Source of the DNA: Halosolutus amylolyticus
GTDB lineage: Archaea; Halobacteriota; Halobacteria; Halobacteriales; Natrialbaceae
Assembly (NCBI RefSeq): GCF_023566055.1
Contig: NZ_JALIQP010000001.1
Location: 62,001 to 126,000, forward strand
Direction of reading: 5' to 3'
Length of the DNA stretch: 64,000 bases
The position numbers and the translations under genes are program-made. The notes under the pieces were generated by a model. That model was not told the origin of the DNA. It searched no databases and saw nothing but the letters and a program-made list of their open reading frames with translations. Positions 11,650-24,624 of the stretch are shown piece by piece. Each line of letters begins with the position of its first letter. The stretch's first letter is position 1.

Positions 11650-11663
11650 TTGTTCTACACCAA
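11650..11663. promoter_or_regulatory. Putative cob operator, copy 4 (TTGTTCTACACCAA)
   Basis: A second perfect copy, 34 bp after copy 3 and with an extended GTTG/CAAC inverted repeat. It lies just upstream of the TATA-like TTTTA of cbiT. Confidence 0.6.
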
Positions 11664-11669
11664 CCAAAA

Positions 11670-11683
11670 TTGTTTTAGGCCAG
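11670..11683. promoter_or_regulatory. Degenerate cob operator overlapping the cbiT TATA region
   Basis: TTGTTTTAGGCCAG matches all but the last base of the palindrome and begins 20 bp after copy 4. Its TTTTA is about 26-30 nt before the cbiT ATG, so it may double as the TATA box of a leaderless transcript. Confidence 0.45.
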
Positions 11684-14068: not shown

Positions 14069-14188
14069 ATGCGCTGGCGTAGTCACCGCGAACACGGCGA
14101 GAGCCCCCACTTCGGTCGAGTCGGTGGACTGGACGGGGCTGTGGAACGTGGACGGGACAATTTCGATGCGATGGAGGTCGGACAATGA
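14069..14188 (+). CDS. 39-residue micro-ORF between cbiF and cbiG
   Basis: ATG to TGA, 39 codons, beginning two bases after the cbiF stop and ending with its TGA overlapping the cbiG ATG (ATGA). A near-perfect Shine-Dalgarno GGAGGTGA sits 8 nt before its ATG, and a second one (GGAGGT, 14173-14178) inside it serves cbiG. The peptide starts MRWRSHREHG and is basic in its first half, unusual against the acidic neighbours, with four histidines that could bind metal. It fills the gap exactly. It may be a genuine small cob protein or a coupling device. Confidence 0.55.
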   Translation: MRWRSHREHGESPHFGRVGGLDGAVERGRDNFDAMEVGQ

Positions 14189-15183
14189 GTTCAGAGACCG
14201 AGAACACGGATACGACGGGCGATACTGGATCGGATTCCGACGGTGGCCACTGTTCGACGCCGGATTCGGACGGCGAAGTCGCGGAGGAGATCGCGATCGT
14301 CTCCTTCGGCCGGAAGATGGACACCGCCGAGGAGATCAAGGAGGAACTCGCGGATCGCTACGAGGCGATCGAGATCCTCGAGTACCACGGCGAGGTCTTC
14401 GAGGACCACTGGGGCGAGTACGACTGCTTCGTCGGCCTGATGGCCTCGGGGATCGCGATGCGCAAGACGGCCCACCTGCTCGACGACAAGTGGGAGGACC
14501 CCGCGATCTGCGTCGTCGACGAGGAACTCACCTGGGCGATCCCGATCACGGGCGGCCACCACGGCGCGAACCAGGTCGCACAGGACCTGGCGACGATGGG
14601 TGCCGTCCCGGCGATGACCACCGCCTCGGAAGCCGCGGGCAAGCAGGGCGTCGAGTCCCGTGCGAAGGCGATGGACGCCCACGTCGTCAACGGCGACTCG
14701 ACGGTCAAGACGAACCTCGCCGTGCTGGACGACGACCTCGGTCCCGTGGCGCGACTCGACGGCCCGCGAGCCGTCCTCGTCGGCGACGACGTGACGGTCC
14801 TCAAGCGCAACGAGCAGGAGGGGTGCGTCCTCGGCACGGGGAGCGTCTCCGGTGCGAGCACGGACGCGTTCCTCGCCGCGTGGGACGAAGCGCTCGATCG
14901 AACCGAGTACGACCTCGAGGACGTCGAGTTCGTGGGGACCGCGACCCGGAAAGAAGACGAGGACGGACTGCTCGAGGCTGCCCGGGAACTCGATCTGGGC
15001 GTGGTCACCTTCGACAAGGAGACCCTGCTCGACCACGAGGGGCCGACCCCCTCCAGATCGAAGGAGTTGATCGGCTGGCCCGGCGTCTCCGAGGCCTCGG
15101 CGATCGCCGGCGGGGCCGAGCAGGAACTCGTCCTCGAGAAACTCAGCTACGAGAACGAGGTCACGGTGGCGATCGGCCGATGA
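14185..15183 (+). CDS. cbiG: Cobalt-precorrin-5A hydrolase CbiG
   Basis: 332 residues, with the CbiG pattern: an N-terminal half containing VGLMASGIAMRK and an ITGGHHGANQVA block, then a C-terminal CobE/CbiG domain with a GVSEASAIAGG stretch. CbiG opens the delta-lactone of cobalt-precorrin-5A and releases C20 as acetaldehyde, a step specific to the cobalt-early (anaerobic-type) pathway. A 30-residue acidic N-terminus with one cysteine precedes the domain. Its start has a good Shine-Dalgarno and overlaps the micro-ORF stop. Its end overlaps cbiH1 by four bases. Confidence 0.92.
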   Translation: MSSETENTDTTGDTGSDSDGGHCSTPDSDGEVAEEIAIVSFGRKMDTAEEIKEELADRYEAIEILEYHGEVFEDHWGEYDCFVGLMASGIAMRKTAHLLDDKWEDPAICVVDEELTWAIPITGGHHGANQVAQDLATMGAVPAMTTASEAAGKQGVESRAKAMDAHVVNGDSTVKTNLAVLDDDLGPVARLDGPRAVLVGDDVTVLKRNEQEGCVLGTGSVSGASTDAFLAAWDEALDRTEYDLEDVEFVGTATRKEDEDGLLEAARELDLGVVTFDKETLLDHEGPTPSRSKELIGWPGVSEASAIAGGAEQELVLEKLSYENEVTVAIGR

Positions 15184-16061
15184 GCGGGAGCGAGACCGAA
15201 CCCACGGACGCGACGGCCGGCGGCACCCCCGACGACCACGGCACCCTCTACGTCGTCGGCATCGGACCGGGTCTGCCGGACCACATGACCGTGAAGGCAA
15301 AGCGGGTCATCGAATCGGCGGACGTCGTCATCGCCTCGAGTCTCTACCAGGCGTTCCTGCGCGAGGACGGCACGCTCCCCCCGGAGGAGGCAGTCGACGA
15401 GGACGGGATCGCGACCCGAGGAGACGGGTTCGAACAGGAGATCGTCCGATCGACGATGGGGCGACAGATCGAACTCGCCCGCGCGGCGTTCGACTACGTC
15501 CGCGAGGGGAAAGACGTCGCGCACGTCTCCGGCGGTGACCCGTCGGTCTACGGCAAGTCCGATCTCGTCTTCACGATGGCCGAGGAGGAGGACGCGACGG
15601 ACGTGCCGATCGAGATCGTTCCCGGCCTGACCGCGGCGCTGGGCGGGGCGGCCAACGTCGGCGCACCGCTGTGCAACGACTTCTGTACCGTCTCGCTGTC
15701 GGACAAGTGGCGCGGCTGGGACGAGATCGAGGAGAAACTGCGCGCGGCGGCGATCTCGGACTTCGTGATCGTCCTGTACAACTGCTGGCGCAACTACGAA
15801 CGGGCCGTCGAGATCGTCCGCGAAGAACGCACCGACGACGCCTACGTGGCGATCGTCAACGACGCCGGCCGCGCGGACGCCGGCCGCAACGGCGAGAGCG
15901 AGTTCGTCACGACCCTCGGCGAGGCCGCCGACCACGATGACAGAGTGTCGGGAATGGGCACCTCGCTGATCATCGGCACCCACGAGACCGAAACCTGGCG
16001 CAACGACGATCGAACGTACCTGGTCACCCCGCGCGGCGGGCGTGACGTCGACGATTTCTGA
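15180..16061 (+). CDS. cbiH: Cobalt-precorrin-3 C17-methyltransferase paralogue CbiH1
   Basis: A 293-residue tetrapyrrole methylase of the CbiH/CobJ type, with VVGIGPGLPDHMTVKA near residue 24, VSGGDPSVYGKSDLV, IVPGLTAALGGAANVGAP and a SLSDKWRGWDEIE block. CbiH methylates C17 and drives ring contraction. Two adjacent CbiH-like genes are present; this one deviates more from the usual motif set (VSGGDPSVYGKSD), so one paralogue may have a changed role. I placed the start at the ATG overlapping the cbiG stop; an open frame extends far upstream but would run over cbiG. Confidence 0.85.
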   Translation: MSGSETEPTDATAGGTPDDHGTLYVVGIGPGLPDHMTVKAKRVIESADVVIASSLYQAFLREDGTLPPEEAVDEDGIATRGDGFEQEIVRSTMGRQIELARAAFDYVREGKDVAHVSGGDPSVYGKSDLVFTMAEEEDATDVPIEIVPGLTAALGGAANVGAPLCNDFCTVSLSDKWRGWDEIEEKLRAAAISDFVIVLYNCWRNYERAVEIVREERTDDAYVAIVNDAGRADAGRNGESEFVTTLGEAADHDDRVSGMGTSLIIGTHETETWRNDDRTYLVTPRGGRDVDDF

Positions 16062-16070
16062 CCAACAGCC

Positions 16071-17093
16071 ATGAGCACGGACACCGACGCAGACGCCGAC
16101 GACGAATCGACCTCGAAGTGTGGTGCGACGACCGAAACCGAGACCGACGCCTCGTCTTCGGAGTCGAAGTGCGGCGCCTCTTCGAGCACCGCGGACGACT
16201 CGAGTAGCAAATGCGGCGCTTCGAGTTCCTCGTCATCCTCGGGCAAGTGTGGCGCCTCGAGTTCGGACGACGAATCTCACGAACAGGAGGTCGGCGCGAC
16301 GATCGAGGACTTCGACGCGGACCCCGGCCAGTTGACGGCCGTCGGGCTCGGCCCCGGTCACCCGGAGGGGATGACCGAGCGCGCCAAGACCGCCCTGCTC
16401 GAGGCCGACCACATCGTCGGCTACACGACCTACATCGAACTCGTTCCGGACGAGATCACCGAGAGGGCCGACGAGATCTACGACACGCCGATGTGCGGCG
16501 AAGTCTCCCGGACCGAGGAGGCGATCGATCGCGCGCTCGCGGGCAACGACGTCGCCATCGTCGGCAGCGGCGATCCGAACGTCTACGCGCTCGCGGGGCT
16601 GGCACTCGAGATTCTCGAGTCCAAGGGTGCGACGGCGTCGATGGTCGAGTTCGACGTGGTGCCGGGCGTCCCGGCGGCCCAGTCCTGTGCGGCCCGGCTC
16701 GGCGCACCGCTGGTGAACGACACCGTCTCGGTCTCGCTGTCGGATCACCTCGTCCCGATGCCCGAGATCGAGTCGCGACTGCACGCGGTCGCGAGCGAGA
16801 ACTTCACGATCACGATCTACAACCCCTGGAGTCGCAAGCGTCGGGAGAACTTCGAGAAGGCCTGCGAGATCCTGCTGACGCATCGCGATCCCGACACGCC
16901 GGTCGGCATCGTTCACGGCGCCGGCCGCGAGGACGAGCAGGTGCTGATCACCGAACTCGGCGAACTCGAAGCCCTCGGCGAGCACGAGATCGTCGACATG
17001 ACGACGACGATCGTCGTCGGCACCGAGGACACCTACGTCTGGGACGATCGGATGGTCACACCGCGTGGCTACGAGACGAAGTACGACTACTGA
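16071..17093 (+). CDS. cbiH: CbiH2, C17-methyltransferase with Cys-repeat extension
   Basis: A 340-residue protein. Residues about 85-340 are a CbiH methylase (GLGPGHPEGMTERAK, GSGDPNVYALAG, VPGVPAAQSCAARLGAPL, SLSDHLVPMPEIE, ending VTPRGY). The first 80 residues are a Ser/Asp-rich extension holding four copies of the tetrapeptide KCGA, with cysteines 17, 34, 48 and 60. Some bacterial CbiH proteins carry an Fe-S cluster in an extra domain, so a metal or cluster-binding role is a reasonable inference, though spacing of the cysteines does not match a standard ferredoxin motif. A ferredoxin gene follows 28 bases downstream. Confidence 0.88.
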   Translation: MSTDTDADADDESTSKCGATTETETDASSSESKCGASSSTADDSSSKCGASSSSSSSGKCGASSSDDESHEQEVGATIEDFDADPGQLTAVGLGPGHPEGMTERAKTALLEADHIVGYTTYIELVPDEITERADEIYDTPMCGEVSRTEEAIDRALAGNDVAIVGSGDPNVYALAGLALEILESKGATASMVEFDVVPGVPAAQSCAARLGAPLVNDTVSVSLSDHLVPMPEIESRLHAVASENFTITIYNPWSRKRRENFEKACEILLTHRDPDTPVGIVHGAGREDEQVLITELGELEALGEHEIVDMTTTIVVGTEDTYVWDDRMVTPRGYETKYDY

Positions 17094-17121: not shown

Positions 17122-17388
17122 ATGCCACGATACGAAGTCACCATCGAGAAGGACGCCTGTGACGGCATCTTCGCCTGCCTGACCCGGGATCCGCGGTTCG
17201 TCGAAGGCGACGACGGCCTCGCGACGATCGACCCCGGCGCAGACCCGGTGTACGACTGCGAGGGCGCGGTCACGGACACCGCGGAGCGCGTCGTTGCGAC
17301 GTTCGACGACGATCGGATCGACGAGGCGAGACGGGCCGCGGCGGCGTGTCCGACAGACGCGATCGTCGTCGAGGAGGTGGCCGAATGA
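17122..17388 (+). CDS. Single-cluster ferredoxin
   Basis: An 88-residue small ferredoxin. Cys13 and Cys19 lie in CDGIFAC near the N-terminus and Cys76 in AAACPTDAI near the C-terminus, matching single-cluster ferredoxins with CX5C and CP motifs. The usual middle Cys is replaced, suggesting a [3Fe-4S] cluster or Asp ligation, and Cys46 is a possible further ligand. Its place after CbiH2 suggests it donates or accepts electrons in corrin ring contraction or the missing C6 reduction (inference). I chose the ATG after a 28-base gap because the sequence from there matches ferredoxin N-termini. It overlaps the next gene by four bases. Confidence 0.85.
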   Translation: MPRYEVTIEKDACDGIFACLTRDPRFVEGDDGLATIDPGADPVYDCEGAVTDTAERVVATFDDDRIDEARRAAAACPTDAIVVEEVAE

Positions 17389-18122
17389 GCGACGCGGAGT
17401 CGCCGATCGACGACGAGGTGACCGGAATCGAGATCCAGGTGCCGGCCGACCCCCTCGCGGGACATCCCGCGACGGCCTACTTCTGGGGCCACGTCGCCGG
17501 AAGCGGGACGGTCAGCGACGCGGGCATCGACGTCGTCACGAACGACGAGGCGTCCGCGCAGGTGCTCGCGGCGATCGCGGGCGGTGAACTCGAGCACCGG
17601 ACGATCAGTCGCGAGTACGCTCACGACGCGTCGATCACACGGACCGAGGACGAGTACACGCTCTCGATCGAGGCCGGGGACGCCGATGGCGAGGACGACG
17701 CGCACCTCCTCGGACGACGCGGGGCGATCGGCCTCCCCGTCGACGGCCGCGGTAACTACCGATTCGGCGCGTTCTCGGCGTACGATCGGGAACTGCTCCG
17801 GGGTCTGCTCGAGGGCTGTGGAACGATCTGTTTCAAGTCCTCGAGCGCCAGTGTGGGAATCTCGTTCGTCCACGACGATCGGGACCTGCTCGCGTTCGTG
17901 CAGGATTCGATCGCCGACTGTCCGGTCGACGCACCCCTGGGCGATCTCTCCGAGACGTCTTCGGGCGGCTACTGGTTCGGCGTCGACGACGACGCCGCGC
18001 CCGCGTTCGGCACCTGGCTCTACGAGGACTGCGAGGAGACCGGCCTGTTCGCCCCGAGTCGCCGACGCAAACTCGAACGGAGCCTCGAACAGGCCGCGGC
18101 GTACGACGATCCCCAGCAGTAA
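17385..18122 (+). CDS. LAGLIDADG-fold protein in the cobalamin operon
   Basis: A 245-residue protein with two helices that align to the LAGLIDADG motif: FWGHVAGSGTV at residues 33-43 and LRGLLEGCGTI at 138-148. The C-terminal WLYEDCEETG and SRRRKL stretch resembles the end of LAGLIDADG domains. In the first helix the acidic catalytic position is Ala; in the second it is Glu. The pseudo-symmetric two-repeat layout fits a single-chain LAGLIDADG protein, usually a homing endonuclease, but it is not within an intron or intein and is locked in the operon by a four-base overlap with the ferredoxin gene. A domesticated, possibly non-nuclease role in cobalamin synthesis is inferred. Confidence 0.6.
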   Translation: MSDAESPIDDEVTGIEIQVPADPLAGHPATAYFWGHVAGSGTVSDAGIDVVTNDEASAQVLAAIAGGELEHRTISREYAHDASITRTEDEYTLSIEAGDADGEDDAHLLGRRGAIGLPVDGRGNYRFGAFSAYDRELLRGLLEGCGTICFKSSSASVGISFVHDDRDLLAFVQDSIADCPVDAPLGDLSETSSGGYWFGVDDDAAPAFGTWLYEDCEETGLFAPSRRRKLERSLEQAAAYDDPQQ

Positions 18123-18141
18123 CCCACGCACACGAAATACG

Positions 18142-19368
18142 ATGAGCACACCTGACGACACCCCGTCCACGACGGCCTTCGACGACGAGGCGGTCCTCCT
18201 GGTGGGACACGGCTCCCGCCGGGAGAAGTCGAACGAGCAGGTCCGGGACCTGGCGGCCGACCTCGAGTCCCGACTGGGGATTCCGGTCGACGCGGCGTTC
18301 CTCGAACTCGCGGAGCCGGCGATCGACGAGGCGTTCGCCGAACTCGCGACGATCGTCTCGCGGGTTACGGTCGTCCACTGTTCGCTGTTCGCCGCGAGCC
18401 ACGTCAAGAACGACGTCCCGCTGGCGATCGAACAGGCCCGCGCGGCCCACGACGTCGAGATCGCCAACGGCTCCCACCTGGGGATTCACCCGGCGATCGT
18501 CGACCTGCTCGACGATCGGGCCGCCGCGGTCGAGCGCGAACTCGGCGTCGACCGGGGGACCGACGACGTCGCCGTCGTCCTCTGCGGGCGCGGGTCGAGC
18601 GATCCGGACGCCAACGGCGACGTCCACAAACTGGCCCGGTTGCTGTACGAGGGGCGGGCGTTCGATCGCGTGGAGGCCTCGTTCGTCGGCGTCACGGAGC
18701 CGACGCTGGAGGAGTCCCTTCACGGACTCTCGAAACACCGGCCGGACGCGGTCGTCGTCCTGCCGTACATGCTCGGGGACGGCGTCCTCACCCAGCGGGT
18801 TCGGGACTGGACCGCAGCGTTCGACGACGAGTATCCCTACGTCGATGCGCTGGCGGGCGACCCGCTCGGGACCGACTCGCGGCTGCTCGACGTCTTCGCC
18901 GATCGGTGGCAGGAGGCCCGGACGGGTAGCGTCGAGATGTCCTGTGATACCTGCAAGTACAAGGTCGACCTCGAGGGCTACGAGGAGGACGTCGGCGGCG
19001 CACGGGCGATGCTCCGCGCGCTCGCCCACCAGGGGGCCCACGCCGATCGGGACGACGTCGACGACGAGCCACACAGTCACGACGGGCCCGCGAAACACGT
19101 CGCGGTGTGTACGAACCGGACCTGTGCCGAGATGGGGTCCCCAGCGGTAATCGAACGGCTTCGCCAGGCGGCCCGCGACTCCGACCACTGCGACGCCCGG
19201 ATCACCCGATCGTCCTGTCTCGGCCGCTGCGGTGACGGCCCGATGGTCGCCGTCTATCCCGACGGGATCTGGTACGGCGACGTCGACCGCAACGACGCCG
19301 AGCGGATCGTCACCGACCACCTCGATCGCGATCGGATCGTCAGCGACCTCGTCGATCGGACGCTGTAG
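18142..19368 (+). CDS. cbiX: Sirohydrochlorin cobaltochelatase CbiX with 2Fe-2S domain
   Basis: A 408-residue protein. Two CbiX repeats occupy about residues 15-265, beginning VLLVGHGSRREKSNEQV, with the second repeat at VAVVLCGRGSSDPDANGD. This is the two-domain long form that inserts cobalt into sirohydrochlorin, the early step of the anaerobic-type pathway. A CDTCKYK motif (Cys268, Cys271) joins it to a C-terminal thioredoxin-like [2Fe-2S] ferredoxin domain with Cys323, Cys328, Cys359 and Cys363 (CX4C then CX3C). The domain may sense redox state or supply electrons. A His-rich patch (DDEPHSHDG) lies between. The start ATG is 19 bases after the previous stop. Confidence 0.9.
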   Translation: MSTPDDTPSTTAFDDEAVLLVGHGSRREKSNEQVRDLAADLESRLGIPVDAAFLELAEPAIDEAFAELATIVSRVTVVHCSLFAASHVKNDVPLAIEQARAAHDVEIANGSHLGIHPAIVDLLDDRAAAVERELGVDRGTDDVAVVLCGRGSSDPDANGDVHKLARLLYEGRAFDRVEASFVGVTEPTLEESLHGLSKHRPDAVVVLPYMLGDGVLTQRVRDWTAAFDDEYPYVDALAGDPLGTDSRLLDVFADRWQEARTGSVEMSCDTCKYKVDLEGYEEDVGGARAMLRALAHQGAHADRDDVDDEPHSHDGPAKHVAVCTNRTCAEMGSPAVIERLRQAARDSDHCDARITRSSCLGRCGDGPMVAVYPDGIWYGDVDRNDAERIVTDHLDRDRIVSDLVDRTL

Positions 19369-19423: not shown

Positions 19424-19795
19424 ATGAGCTGTCACGAAATCGAAGCGCTACGACTCGGACTGATGACCGTCCTCGGCGTCGGGGACGAGAGCACCCGCGA
19501 CCACGCGGCGAAAGAACTCGATGGCCATCTGGAGGGACCGATCGAGGGACTCGCGAACGCCGAGAGCCTCGCCGAACTCCAGCGCCACCTCGACGCGGCG
19601 CTGGTCGACCTGGAGGAGGAGGTCGCGACGATGGATCGCGAGGATCCGGCCTACGACTACACCCGCGGCCGTCTGCTCGAGGTTCGTAACGCCGAGCGGG
19701 CGGTCCAGCGACTCACTGCGCAGGGAGAGAGCATCGTCGACGGCCTCGGCGAGGCGCACGACACCCTCCACGAAACGTTCCCCGTAGAGGAGTGA
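19424..19795 (+). CDS. DUF3209-like protein
   Basis: A 123-residue, acidic, mostly helical protein beginning MSCHEIEALRLGLM. I recall this as the DUF3209 family, found in haloarchaea beside cbiX; that is from memory, not a search. The Cys and His at positions 3 and 4 form a possible N-terminal metal site. The remainder looks like a helical bundle, with LAELQRHLDAALVDLEEEVA and a second helix pair. No enzyme motif is visible. Its conserved place within the cob operon suggests an accessory role, such as a partner of CbiX or a cobalt handler. Confidence 0.7.
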   Translation: MSCHEIEALRLGLMTVLGVGDESTRDHAAKELDGHLEGPIEGLANAESLAELQRHLDAALVDLEEEVATMDREDPAYDYTRGRLLEVRNAERAVQRLTAQGESIVDGLGEAHDTLHETFPVEE

Positions 19796-19797
19796 GA

Positions 19798-21111
19798 ATG
19801 GCGAGTTCCGAATCCGACACCGGCGCACGAGCCGATCGGAACGGCGAGTTCCGGCAACTCAGCCTCGGCGAGATCGAGGCCGCGCGGAGTCGCCACACGT
19901 GGACTCGATCGGCCGTCCACGTCACCGGCGACCTCGTCCTCGCGGGACGGTGGGACGGCACCGTTACCGCGTTCGACGCCGACTCGCTCGAGACGCGGTG
20001 GACGGCTTCCCACCCGGATCACGCGGTCGGGATCGCGACGCTCGAGGACGGAACCGGGACGGGAAGCGGCACCGACGCCGACGCGATCGTCGTCGCCGGT
20101 CGCGGCGAGACGGGGACGATTGCGGCCTACAACGCCGAAACCGGGGCTAAGCAGTGGCGCTACGACACCGCGGCCGACGTCGGCGACCCCGTCAGGGACT
20201 CCGTCTTCTACCTGCCGTACGTCGTCGCGATCGAGGCCGGCGACACGGACGCGGGCGACGAACGGCTCTACGCCGCGGCCCGCCGGTACGAACGGGACGG
20301 TGATGTTCGGCGCTGGTACAGCACCGTCCTCGCGTTCGACGCCGACGGCACCGTTCGCTGGCGGTACGAGACCGACGCCTCGCCGATCGCGATCGACCTC
20401 GCCCCCGACGGAGACCGACTGGCAGTCGGCTACAACCGCTGTCTGGGTGACCACGATCACGGCCTCGTCGTCCTCGACGCGGCGACCGGCGACCCGAAGT
20501 GGACGTGGGATCCCGGGACGCCGGGCGATCGGCGCGTCGGCGACGTCTCGTTCGACGGCGATCGACTCGCCGTCGCGAGCCACGGGGACAAGCGCGGCTA
20601 CCTGCTCGGGCCGGGCGGTGCCGAGCGCTGGTGGGTCGACCTCGCGGTCGAGACCGAGATCGACGGGGAGACGCTGTACGCCTACCCGAATCACGTCTCC
20701 GCGAGCGACGGTCGCGTCGCGTTCGTGACCGGCAACACCTACGCCGAAGAGAGCCGCGAGACCGAGAATCGGCACCCGAACGAACACCGCGTTACGGTCG
20801 TCGACGCCGCGGGCGATCCCGTGTGGGACGACGCGGTCCGTGGCTTCGTCCACGGACTCGCCGCTGCCGACGGGACGATCGTCGCGCCCTGCGCGCAGAA
20901 CTTCCGGGTCCGGGATCCCGGGACCCACGCCATCCGCTGGTTCGATCGCGAGACGGGCACCGGCGGCGTCGAGGGGTTCGACGGGATCGCGACCGCGGCC
21001 GCCGTCGCGGACGGGACGATCGCCGCCATCGAGGAACCCGTCGAGTACCACGACGAGAGTGAGACGCGCGGCGAGTACGCCGTTCACGTCGGATCGGTCG
21101 ACGGGTGCTGA
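19798..21111 (+). CDS. PQQ/WD40-like beta-propeller protein
   Basis: A 437-residue protein made of repeated beta-sheet blades, for example AGRWDGTVTAFDADSLETRW, YNAETGAKQWRYDT and LDAATGDPKWTWDPGT, the pattern of PQQ-like or BamB-type propellers. There is no signal peptide or lipobox, so it should be cytoplasmic. It begins two bases after the DUF3209 stop and is the last gene of the cob operon. Propellers are mostly protein-binding scaffolds, so it may assemble cob enzymes or chelatase subunits, but nothing in the sequence fixes its role. PQQ binding itself is not implied. Confidence 0.75.
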   Translation: MASSESDTGARADRNGEFRQLSLGEIEAARSRHTWTRSAVHVTGDLVLAGRWDGTVTAFDADSLETRWTASHPDHAVGIATLEDGTGTGSGTDADAIVVAGRGETGTIAAYNAETGAKQWRYDTAADVGDPVRDSVFYLPYVVAIEAGDTDAGDERLYAAARRYERDGDVRRWYSTVLAFDADGTVRWRYETDASPIAIDLAPDGDRLAVGYNRCLGDHDHGLVVLDAATGDPKWTWDPGTPGDRRVGDVSFDGDRLAVASHGDKRGYLLGPGGAERWWVDLAVETEIDGETLYAYPNHVSASDGRVAFVTGNTYAEESRETENRHPNEHRVTVVDAAGDPVWDDAVRGFVHGLAAADGTIVAPCAQNFRVRDPGTHAIRWFDRETGTGGVEGFDGIATAAAVADGTIAAIEEPVEYHDESETRGEYAVHVGSVDGC

Positions 21112-21240: not shown

Positions 21241-22326
21241 ATGACAGCGGGACCAGAAACTGATACCAGCGACGAGTGTTCGGATCCCGTAGTGGTCGGA
21301 TCCACCTCGAGCCGTCCCGACGGGGTCGATCGACGGGCCCAGCCGTCCCGACGGGTGATGACCGACGGCGGGCAGGCACAGGCCGAACCCGAGGCGGACG
21401 ACGAGAGCGAGGCAGACACCGAAGAGGAAGCCGAGGACGATGGTGAAGCTGACGCCGGAGAAGAGACAGAAGGGGCCGAAGAGGAGGCTGAAGCGGAGCC
21501 AGCAGAGGTCGAAGAGGAGTCGGAAGGGGTCGAAGAGGAGCCAGCAGAGGCCGAGGAAGACGAAGCTGAAGAAGAAGACGAAGAGGGACTGGACGTAACC
21601 GGAGACCTCGTCGAAGACGATCGCGCGGAGGGGCACGCCGACGACGCCGAAACCGTGTACGAGGGTGACGACGCCTCCGGCGTCCTGCACCTCGATCTCG
21701 ACGGCCTGTTCCTGGACCTGCTCGGGCTCGAGGTCAACCTGAACCCGGTCACCCTCGACGTCTCGGCCCGGCCCGGGGGTGGCAATTTACTCGGGAACTT
21801 GCTGTCCGCGGTGACGGGCCTGCTGGACGGCCCGGGTGCGCTGCTGGACAAGGTGACGTCGCTGCTGGGGAAGCCACTGGAGTGGCTCGGTTCCCTGACG
21901 GACAAGCTGAAGTCGATACTCGGCAAGCCGAAGGAGTGGCTCGGCTCCCTGTCGGAGCGGGTAAAGAGCGGGCTCAGCGATCTGGTCCGTAAACCCGGAG
22001 CCTTCCTCAGGAGTCTCTTCGGTCGTGGTGAGGCGGAGGATATCGAAGAAGGAGCGGCAGAAGAACCGGTCGGCGAAGAGGAAGGGGAAGAAGCGGAGGC
22101 CGAACCCGGACGAATCGCCTCGGCGGTCCAGTGGGTCCGATCGACACTGTCGGGCGCGGCGGGCTGGCTGAAGGAGAAACTCGTCGGTCTCGTCCCGGGA
22201 CTCCCGGTAGAGGAGGTCATCGCGACGATCGTTCGGAGCGTGATCCAGCAACTCCTCGAGCAACTCGAACCGGAAGGTGAACGCGACGAAGCGGACGCAC
22301 AGGAGGGCGCACCAGCGGAAGCATAA
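21241..22326 (+). CDS. Acidic protein with GNLLGNLL amphipathic module
   Basis: A 361-residue protein of unknown function. Residues about 50-140 are a Glu/Ala-rich low-complexity stretch. From about 148 comes a block of alternating hydrophobic residues, LHLDLDGLFLDLLGLEVNLN, then GGGNLLGNLLSAVTGLLDG. I remember similar stretches in hypothetical proteins of many bacteria. Repeated amphipathic segments follow (KPLEWLGSLTDKLKS and KPKEWLGSLSERVKS), then a second Glu-rich linker and a C-terminal hydrophobic helix. No signal peptide is seen. The start is ambiguous: an in-frame ATG at 21358 is also possible. It leads a four-gene same-strand cluster with 2-53-base gaps. Confidence 0.6.
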   Translation: MTAGPETDTSDECSDPVVVGSTSSRPDGVDRRAQPSRRVMTDGGQAQAEPEADDESEADTEEEAEDDGEADAGEETEGAEEEAEAEPAEVEEESEGVEEEPAEAEEDEAEEEDEEGLDVTGDLVEDDRAEGHADDAETVYEGDDASGVLHLDLDGLFLDLLGLEVNLNPVTLDVSARPGGGNLLGNLLSAVTGLLDGPGALLDKVTSLLGKPLEWLGSLTDKLKSILGKPKEWLGSLSERVKSGLSDLVRKPGAFLRSLFGRGEAEDIEEGAAEEPVGEEEGEEAEAEPGRIASAVQWVRSTLSGAAGWLKEKLVGLVPGLPVEEVIATIVRSVIQQLLEQLEPEGERDEADAQEGAPAEA

Positions 22327-22328
22327 CA

Positions 22329-22811
22329 ATGAGTCAGGAAACCGAATCGATGACCCAGCGGATCGACTACGAATCGATCACCGAGAACATCAACCTCGAC
22401 GAGTTGATCGAGGGAACCCAGTGGGAGGACCAGATCGACGAGGACGAACCCCTCGGAGAGGCACTCGGTGCGATGATCGGCGCAGTTATCGGCCGAAAGC
22501 TCGGCGAGACCCTCGGTCGATCGATCGGACATCTCGTCGTCGAGGAACTCTTCGGGAAGAAAGACGAGGCGGAGGAAGAAGAAGCCGCCGAGGAAGCGGA
22601 GAAAGAAGAAGCAGTCGAGGAAGCGGAGGAAGAGGAAGCCGTCGAGGAAGCAGAAGAAGCGGCCGACGAAGAAGGGACCGAGGAGGCAGAGGACGAAGAG
22701 ACAGAAGGCGAGGGTGAAGAAGCGGAAGCCGAGGCGGACGAAGACACTGCCGACGAGAGTGAGGAAGCCGAGGCAGAAGACGACGGCGACGACAGTGACG
22801 AGGAGGGCTAA
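22329..22811 (+). CDS. Glycine-zipper acidic protein, 160 residues
   Basis: The first half contains LGEALGAMIGAVIGRKLGET followed by LGRSIGHLVVEELF, a helix with glycines every four residues (glycine zipper), which usually packs into membranes or oligomers. The second half is almost entirely Glu, Ala and Asp. It begins two bases after the preceding gene, so the two are probably co-translated. The zipper closely resembles that of the next gene, suggesting paralogy. Function is unknown. Confidence 0.6.
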   Translation: MSQETESMTQRIDYESITENINLDELIEGTQWEDQIDEDEPLGEALGAMIGAVIGRKLGETLGRSIGHLVVEELFGKKDEAEEEEAAEEAEKEEAVEEAEEEEAVEEAEEAADEEGTEEAEDEETEGEGEEAEAEADEDTADESEEAEAEDDGDDSDEEG

Positions 22812-22864
22812 ACCCGTGACGACGACTCGTTCCATCGACGATCGATCGACGCGAGGTGACGCGG

Positions 22865-23737
22865 ATGAGTGACGATTCCGGGCTGACGGAGGCCGTCACC
22901 ACCGAGGTCACGAATCAGGTCGGCGTTGCCGAACTGCTCGGCGACGGCGATATCGAGGACGAGATCGACGGCGACGAGATCGGGGCGGCAGTCGGCCGCC
23001 GGTTCGGCGAGCGGATCGGTCGGGAACTGGGCGGTTCGATCGGCCGCGAGGTCCACGAGGCGCTCGCGCAGGGTGTCGAGGAAGAGAAGGACCTCTCGGA
23101 GCTTCGATCCGACGTCACGTCGGGAGTCAAGGAGGGGTTCGGTGACGCCCTGGACGAACTCGGCGGGCGGGAGGCCCTCGAATCGCTGGCCGGGTCGGTC
23201 ACCGACGGGGGTCGACTGGGAGGGATACTCGATCGCGACGAGTCCGCAGGCGAGTCGGCGATCGAAGATGAGGAAGCGCCAGAGGAGGACGAAACGGCGG
23301 AGGAAGATGAGGAAGCGCCAGAGGAGGACGAAACGGCGGAGGAAGATGAGGAAGCGCCAGAGGAGGACGAAACGGCGGAAGAAGAGGATGAAGCGGCAGA
23401 GAAAGACGAATCGTCAGAGGAAGAGGAGGAAGCGCCAGAAGAAGAGGAGGCGGCTGAGAAGGCTGACGAGGACGAATCCGATTCCGAACCGTCGGCCGAA
23501 GACCTCGAGGATCTCAGGCGGGAGACGCTGGCGGACTTCCTCGGGGTGATGTCCTACCAGGACCTCCAGTCGATCGCCAAGGACGTCGACGTCAAGGCGA
23601 ACCTGAGTCGGGAGGAGATGACCGACGAGATCATCGAGACGGTGACGAGCGACGACGAGGCGTCGGCAGGTGAGGACGGCGAGTCGACGGGCGACGATGG
23701 GGAGTCTGCGGACGAAGCGACCCAGGAAGCGGAGTGA
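22865..23737 (+). CDS. Glycine-zipper acidic protein with repeats and a SAP-like end
   Basis: A 290-residue protein. Residues about 38-70 hold a zipper (GAAVGRRFGERIGRELGGSI) like that of the preceding gene. A long Glu-rich middle carries three tandem copies of a 13-residue unit, EDEEAPEEDETAE. The C-terminal part (about 215-260, ETLADFLGVMSYQDLQSIAK then SREEMTDEIIETV) resembles SAP or Rho-N-type helix-extended-loop-helix modules, which often bind nucleic acid. I chose the ATG; an in-frame GTG three codons upstream is possible. Role unknown. Confidence 0.6.
   Translation: MSDDSGLTEAVTTEVTNQVGVAELLGDGDIEDEIDGDEIGAAVGRRFGERIGRELGGSIGREVHEALAQGVEEEKDLSELRSDVTSGVKEGFGDALDELGGREALESLAGSVTDGGRLGGILDRDESAGESAIEDEEAPEEDETAEEDEEAPEEDETAEEDEEAPEEDETAEEEDEAAEKDESSEEEEEAPEEEEAAEKADEDESDSEPSAEDLEDLRRETLADFLGVMSYQDLQSIAKDVDVKANLSREEMTDEIIETVTSDDEASAGEDGESTGDDGESADEATQEAE
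23264..23380 (+). repeat. 39-bp tandem repeat, three copies
   Basis: Three near-identical in-frame 39-bp units encode EDEEAPEEDETAE inside the acidic linker of the glycine-zipper protein. The DNA identity between units implies recent duplication by slippage. Confidence 0.85.
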
Positions 23738-23784
23738 CCGCCACGATCGACGACGATCGAGGGACGACGGGAGCAAGCACACAC

Positions 23785-24624
23785 ATGAGCGAGAATCTAT
23801 CCGAACGAGTCGACGAACTGCTGACCGAGGCCGACGCCGCGAGCGGGGCAGCCCTCTCTCGCGGGGGCGAGGACTCGGGAGATCCATCGATCGGCGAGAC
23901 CGCCCGGGAAGCGAGCGAGATCGTCGACTCGGCCGATCCGCAGGACCTGCTCGCCGCAGTCGGCCTCGACACGCTTCCCGACGGCTCCGAACCGGACACG
24001 ATCCCCGACGCGATCGCGCGAGGTGACCCGGAGCGGGTGGCCGATCTCGAGCGGGTACTGCACCTCGCGAACCTGGCCGATCGAACCGGCGACGGCGAGC
24101 TCGACGACGCGGTCGGGAGCCTCAGGGAAGCGATCGAGTCAGGAGACGGGACGGGGGAGTCGTCAAAGAGCGAGGCCGGGGACGAGTCCAGCGACGAAGC
24201 CGAGGCGGAGGCGGAGTCCGAGGGCGAACCCGGGCCCGGAGACGAGGATACGGACGATCTCGAGGACCGGATCCGATCGACCCTGTCCGATCGGGTGGCC
24301 GACTTCGGCGACGACGTCTCGTCGCTCCAGGAGCAACTGGAAGCGGCGGTTGGCGAGGCGTCCAGTGACGAAACTGACGAGGCGGCGACAGCGGACGACG
24401 AGGTCGAGGAGACGACGGCCGAAGCGGAGGAACCCGCAGACGCCGAGTCCGCGGACGAAAACGGCCTTCTCGGGACCGACGAGGACGGCCTTCTCGGCGC
24501 GGACCAGGGCCTGCGGAGCGGGTCGAGCGAGTCCTCCAGACACTCCACGATGGCGCCGCCGCCGTCCGAGCGAGCGGACATGCGCGCCGTCAGGCGCCAC
24601 TCGACGATGCCGAAGAAGAACTGA
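23785..24624 (+). CDS. Acidic protein with basic RHSTM-repeat tail
   Basis: A 279-residue acidic protein with an N-terminal helical region (residues 1-125, DPQDLLAAVGLDTLPDGSEP) and a low-complexity Glu/Asp/Ala middle. Its last 30 residues differ sharply: they are basic and contain RHSTM twice (SSRHSTMAPPP and VRRHSTMPKKN at the very end). Such a tail could be a docking or phosphorylation signal; this is inference. The start may instead be a GTG at 23734 that overlaps the preceding stop, adding 17 residues. It closes the four-gene acidic cluster. Confidence 0.6.
   Translation: MSENLSERVDELLTEADAASGAALSRGGEDSGDPSIGETAREASEIVDSADPQDLLAAVGLDTLPDGSEPDTIPDAIARGDPERVADLERVLHLANLADRTGDGELDDAVGSLREAIESGDGTGESSKSEAGDESSDEAEAEAESEGEPGPGDEDTDDLEDRIRSTLSDRVADFGDDVSSLQEQLEAAVGEASSDETDEAATADDEVEETTAEAEEPADAESADENGLLGTDEDGLLGADQGLRSGSSESSRHSTMAPPPSERADMRAVRRHSTMPKKN

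Follow-up and report, generated by a model that had tools for sequence, protein, structure and literature searches.

The open reading frame at 17385-18122 on the forward strand of the window (the whole stretch of 64,000 nucleotides that was analysed, from Halosolutus amylolyticus) in all likelihood encodes a nuclease-dead, domesticated LAGLIDADG protein, referred to here as LAG. In haloarchaea the gene is a fixed, dedicated member of the cobalt-early cobalamin operon and is not mobile. Its product is read tentatively, with a probability of roughly 0.4, as an accessory metal or redox factor of that end of the operon which encodes a ferredoxin and the cobaltochelatase CbiX.

Operon structure

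The LAG gene (245 amino acids; delimited by the ORF call and characterized by AlphaFold, Foldseek and LAGLIDADG_3 matches in relatives) started with an ATG at 17385 and stopped at 18122, and cbiX began at 18142. Immediately upstream was the gene for a single-cluster 4Fe-4S ferredoxin, hereafter Fd (17122-17388; Fer4_15, Pfam E 2.9e-14). The four-base overlap with the ferredoxin gene that had been described in a first, sequence-only reading of this DNA was confirmed, and consisted of ATGA in the window; an overlap of the ATGA or GTGA type, with an open upstream frame, was present at the LAG start in 63 of 75 relatives.

All genes of the operon lay on the forward strand, in the order cbiT-cbiL-cbiF-cbiG-cbiH1-cbiH2-Fd-LAG-cbiX-DUF3209-PQQ. 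CbiT, CbiL and CbiF were encoded between 11700 and 14067 (ORF list, synteny), followed by CbiG (14185-15183; PF11760 at G000:C1:76395-76631), a CbiH1-type tetrapyrrole methylase (15180-16061; ORF list, synteny) and a CbiH2-type tetrapyrrole methylase (16071-17093; TP_methylase match, synteny), the last being named by homology for C17 methylation and ring contraction (PMC8305020). Downstream of LAG, the CbiX cobaltochelatase (18142-19368; Pfam) was shown by analysis of its tail to combine an MSCDTC motif and a His-containing linker with a thioredoxin-like 2Fe-2S C-terminal domain. Two further genes, frequently found in the same operon, encoded a DUF3209 protein (19424-19795; PF11483, E 3.6e-50) and a PQQ-type beta-propeller protein (19798-21111; PF13360). 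This operon is the main haloarchaeal cobalt-early cobalamin cluster. Beyond it, the region 21241-24624 of the window held four very acidic, Glu-rich ORFs in a row, one with internal repeats (EEDEEAPEEDETAEED), which by eye were unrelated to the cobalamin operon.

Predicted fold

AlphaFold models were made for the window LAG (pLDDT 82) and for a Halorussus relative (pLDDT 92); both contained two alpha-beta-beta-alpha-beta-beta repeats that pack against each other by way of the motif helices. When these models were compared with the PDB by Foldseek, every match with E<=1e-3 was a LAGLIDADG protein (41/41 and 31/31, respectively). Strong matches included I-Tsp061I (1.8e-6), bI3 maturase, inteins, I-DmoI and WhiA (2.3e-5), the WhiA structures 3hyj and 8dy9 being among the best; I-SceI fell slightly over the E 1e-3 limit, with a TM of about 0.56. 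According to both models, therefore, LAG is a two-repeat, single-chain LAGLIDADG fold, and the original guess to this effect was right. The fold, together with one C-terminal helix, took up the whole protein, and no match to an HTH domain was found in it.

Sequence comparison gave a weaker signal: among relatives, LAGLIDADG_3 of Pfam gave weak matches in 22 of 37 (best 2e-4) and a PHROG endonuclease family matched 11 of 38 (best 1.2e-5). The window LAG itself had no Pfam or NCBIfam match in a single-protein search, and a PDB sequence search with this single protein returned nothing useful; a PDB profile match to an antigen receptor (E 0.27) was dismissed as chance. The two motif helices, originally described as pseudo-symmetric, both exist, but no internal sequence repeat was detected when profiles of the two halves of LAG were compared; the repeats show no detectable similarity at the profile level, and the pseudo-symmetry is structural only.

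Loss of the nuclease site

Motif helix 1 (YFWGHVAGSGTV; 17478-17513, forward strand) comprises residues 32-43 and has its acid position at residue 40, while motif helix 2 (LLRGLLEGCGTI; 17793-17828, forward strand) comprises residues 137-148 and has its acid position at residue 145. LAGLIDADG cleavage requires one acid from each motif, as in I-CreI and I-DmoI. Across 76 family members, position 40 was occupied by S (44), D (22), N (8) or G (2), and position 145 by C (74) or A (2), with D or E never present at the latter. The motif-2 acid was therefore absent from 76/76, leaving no member with both acids, and double-strand cutting is not expected. Judged from these residues, nuclease activity of LAG is very unlikely. 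The earlier statement that the catalytic acid of the first motif had been lost applies to the window, where residue 40 is S, but not to the 22 members that keep D; it is motif 2 that is the acid-less one.

Invariant residues in the 76 members were A31, Y32, W34, G35, H80, R139, G140, E143, G146 and C149, and further G158, S160, S193, W197, F198, D202, Y213, R226 and K229; residue 151 was K or R in every one. Of the invariant residues, E143 lies within motif helix 2 and C149 adjoins it. By I-CreI numbering, C149 and K151 would presumably face into the saddle, beside the former active site. From this pattern of conservation we infer a putative metal site in LAG. A ligand-free role, in which LAG would keep the early pathway enzymes together as a structural scaffold or chaperone, might explain a fixed neighbourhood and fast evolution; it is nevertheless improbable, given the invariant Cys, His, Glu and Asp residues by the former active site, which point to a ligand.

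Distribution and fixed position

CbiG was present in 153 of 294 genomes of the class and LAG in 148 of these 153; all 148 genomes with LAG, among the 294, were positive for CbiG. LAG was not found outside the class, a sample of 295 genomes from the phylum yielding matches only in the window's own order, and no close viral relative was found among viral contigs. Fd, LAG and CbiX followed one another in 58/58 loci fetched from named genomes, so that orthologues stand beside cbiX throughout this set, and LAG was placed mid-operon in every intact cluster. As the sequence-only reading had proposed, the gene sits in neither an intron nor an intein, and both its domestication and its constant place beside cbiX are supported. 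That LAG might instead be a still active or selfish homing endonuclease, sitting in the operon by chance, is suggested by the fold and by the weak family matches to LAGLIDADG endonucleases; with a motif-2 acid that is never present, one and the same place in all loci fetched, no surrounding intron or intein and no viral relative, this is highly improbable.

Rates of evolution were compared as mean identity to the window protein, using relatives from outside the window's own family. Values for LAG (52.7%), Fd (57%), DUF3209 (54%) and PQQ (49%) were similarly low, compared with 72-79% for the Cbi enzymes. Judged by sequence identity, LAG evolves at a rate more in keeping with an accessory or regulatory function than with catalysis of a corrin step.

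Clusters without LAG and displaced copies

Five CbiG-positive genomes were without LAG, even by profile search (G001, G007, G130, G271 and G052). The first four had a compact cluster, CbiT-L-F-G-H1-H2-X (loci L088-L091), beside which Fd, LAG, DUF3209 and PQQ were all missing; their CbiX ended, in place of the 2Fe-2S domain, in a tail rich in His (12 to 40 residues). The fifth, G052, retained Fd and had two tandem CbiX genes (L087:12706-13670), the His-tailed one being exactly in the LAG slot. Fd was present without an adjoining LAG in L087 and also in L121. The notion that LAG stands in for the His tail of CbiX was weakened by a LAG-positive genome (L054) in which a His-tailed CbiX occurs as well, showing that one does not preclude the other, and the grouping of His-tailed CbiX copies in a tree was weak.

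These exceptions bear on the proposal that LAG, alone or with Fd, fills the gap left by CbiD (C1 methylation) or CbiJ (precorrin-6A reduction). The haloarchaeal pathway is without a gene for EC 2.1.1.195 (CbiD) and EC 1.3.1.106 (CbiJ), and HVO_B0055 and B0056 of Haloferax volcanii have been proposed as candidates (PMC8305020); CbiD and CbiJ are noted as missing from Halonotius too (PMC6719526). Among the 294 class genomes, none had CbiD and none had a CbiJ match over the cut-off, which together with the co-occurrence of LAG and CbiG would suit such a role. However, the four compact-cluster genomes, without LAG or Fd, are also without CbiD and CbiJ, and their B12 synthesis is presumed; LAG cannot, therefore, be a universal stand-in for these enzymes. 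It is also absent from G052. Moreover, the fold matches of LAG in the PDB included no methyltransferase or reductase, membership of PF01888 or PF02571 (that is, homology to CbiD or CbiJ) was not found for LAG, and LAG is far less conserved than the corrin enzymes. It is improbable that LAG fills either gap. The original suggestion had been that LAG might act in corrin chemistry or control the operon; its first half, as direct catalysis, is disfavoured both by the LAG-less clusters that also lack CbiD and CbiJ and by the much faster evolution of LAG, while control of the operon is possible.

Genomes without LAG also differed in respiratory genes. Heme-copper oxidase was missing in G001, G007 and G130 and present in G271 and G052; that is, it was missing from 3/5 CbiG-positive genomes without LAG and from 0/99 tested genomes with LAG (Fisher p = 5e-5, with no phylogenetic correction). 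Since G271 and G052 have the oxidase, and since the compact operons may represent one or two events, the link with oxygen is weak once ancestry is considered. The Halodesulfurarchaeum formicicum HTSR1 group showed no growth with oxygen and was negative in the cytochrome oxidase test (PMC5437934).

One further genome, G021, had its operon scattered over three contigs, which carried CbiT...Fd-PQQ, CbiX-DUF3209 and LAG, respectively. In this genome LAG was isolated, with two cation-efflux transporters of the cation diffusion facilitator type and a rhodanese as its neighbours (region L092:8245-11254); the gene is therefore retained even without its operon, in a setting of metal and sulfur functions. 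A few kb from this domesticated copy, at L092:13162-15243, was an ORF that by eye resembled a dCTP deaminase with an intein bearing LAGLIDADG-like motifs.

A conserved element upstream of cbiT

A promoter- or operator-like element of 23 bp (CTACACCAACCAAAATTGTTTTA, also given as CTANNNCAANCAAAATTGTTTTA; 11655-11677, forward strand) was found about 25-30 bp ahead of the cbiT start, as a single copy in the window (chance 0.00). Imperfect TTGTTYTACNCCAA repeats were seen upstream of it. The element occurred once per genome in 7 of 8 genomes scanned and twice in G001; its conservation reached 90% over 32 Natrialbaceae-type loci, and it was kept across haloarchaeal families. Within three mismatches, it was present in 65 of 66 loci with LAG and in all five loci without LAG, while the odd form seen in G052 was common to a LAG-positive locus (L123). 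The element was therefore not counted as evidence for a LAG operator, and its presence in 5/5 loci without LAG means that it gives no support for LAG as its ligand. It is probably a leaderless promoter, and is perhaps served by a class-wide regulator of the cobalamin operon.

This result concerns the possibility that LAG is a WhiA-like, DNA-binding regulator of the operon, whose dead saddle would bind a long site in response to cobalt, a corrinoid or the redox state of Fd. WhiA, whose partner in action is the 4Fe-4S protein WhiB (PMC4850268), is among the best fold matches; folds of the LAGLIDADG kind bind DNA; LAG evolves fast; and the copy in G021 adjoins two cation-efflux genes, a usual place for metalloregulators. 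The near-unique element upstream of the operon would also be in keeping with a regulator, but it stands at a leaderless-promoter position and is kept where LAG is absent. Equally, LAG is without the HTH domain of WhiA, has no basic excess (its net charge per residue of -0.127 being similar to that of adjoining enzymes), and is encoded mid-operon in every intact cluster. Regulation by LAG is thus a realistic but doubtful explanation, and the chief competitor of the accessory reading given below.

Discussion

The B12 route of haloarchaea is the 'anaerobic', cobalt-early one, though most of these archaea respire oxygen. The preferred reading is that LAG would assist the Fd-CbiX end of the operon as a non-enzymatic or accessory factor, its saddle and former active site holding a metal or a cobalt-tetrapyrrole. 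Putative ligands would be the invariant C149, H80, E143, D202 and R139, the near-invariant C145, and the K or R at 151. Together with the 4Fe-4S Fd, LAG may support cobalt insertion or redox-sensitive early steps (CbiX, CbiL or CbiH2), and would do so in oxygen-exposed, oxygen-respiring cells, alongside an Fe-S-bearing CbiX. Fd and LAG might also act in ring contraction (CbiH60).

Several observations favour an accessory role: the fold; loss of the motif-2 acid, combined with the invariant Cys/His/Glu/Asp set; the fixed place and strict co-occurrence with CbiG; the metal and sulfur setting in G021; the His-tailed CbiX in the LAG slot of G052, and in compact operons without LAG and Fd; the oxidase contrast; and a rate of evolution like that of accessory genes, unlike the Cbi enzymes. 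Against it, no LAGLIDADG protein is known to us that serves in metabolism or as a metallochaperone. The coexistence of LAG with a His-tailed CbiX in L054, the oxidase of G271 and G052, and the Fd genes of L087 and L121 that have no LAG beside them also count against it. The most specific form of the proposal, in which the dead cleavage site now binds cobalt or a cobalt-tetrapyrrole and, with Fd, sustains the 'anaerobic' B12 pathway in oxygen-respiring archaea, is unlikely as a whole. If LAG acts on cobalt or corrins, metabolism would have recruited a selfish, DNA-cutting fold; if it is a regulator, it would be an archaeal counterpart of WhiA. LAG is missing from the compact operon type, which occurs mostly in genomes without heme-copper oxidase.

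Comparison with known systems

Four cluster genes of Haloferax volcanii are listed as 'function unassigned' (PMC8305020). Among them is HVO_B0055, which like LAG sits between Fd and cbiX1 of the main cluster for cobalamin. By position and locus-tag order (PMC8305020), rather than by alignment, LAG is almost certainly its orthologue. No fold or origin of HVO_B0055 was stated in the open-licence literature searched; both are now assigned for one of the four unassigned genes, with a class-wide link to the pathway.

The two-repeat alpha-beta-beta-alpha-beta-beta saddle and its motif helices are shared with I-DmoI, I-SceI, I-Tsp061I and inteins. Unlike these monomeric homing endonucleases and inteins, LAG is without the motif-2 catalytic acid, is immobile, and lies outside any intron or intein. 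Closer in kind is the N-terminal domain of WhiA (DUF199), a LAGLIDADG fold likewise kept as a host gene and a non-nuclease; WhiA pairs with the 4Fe-4S WhiB much as the LAG gene is paired with the 4Fe-4S Fd. WhiA differs in having a C-terminal HTH and in being a bacterial transcription factor, whereas LAG is a haloarchaeal protein that lacks an HTH and whose gene is tied into a biosynthetic operon. The yeast HO endonuclease is also a domesticated LAGLIDADG protein (PMC7282813), but still cuts DNA. Domesticated proteins of this fold are thus already represented by WhiA and HO; in the open-licence literature searched, none tied to a cofactor pathway was found.
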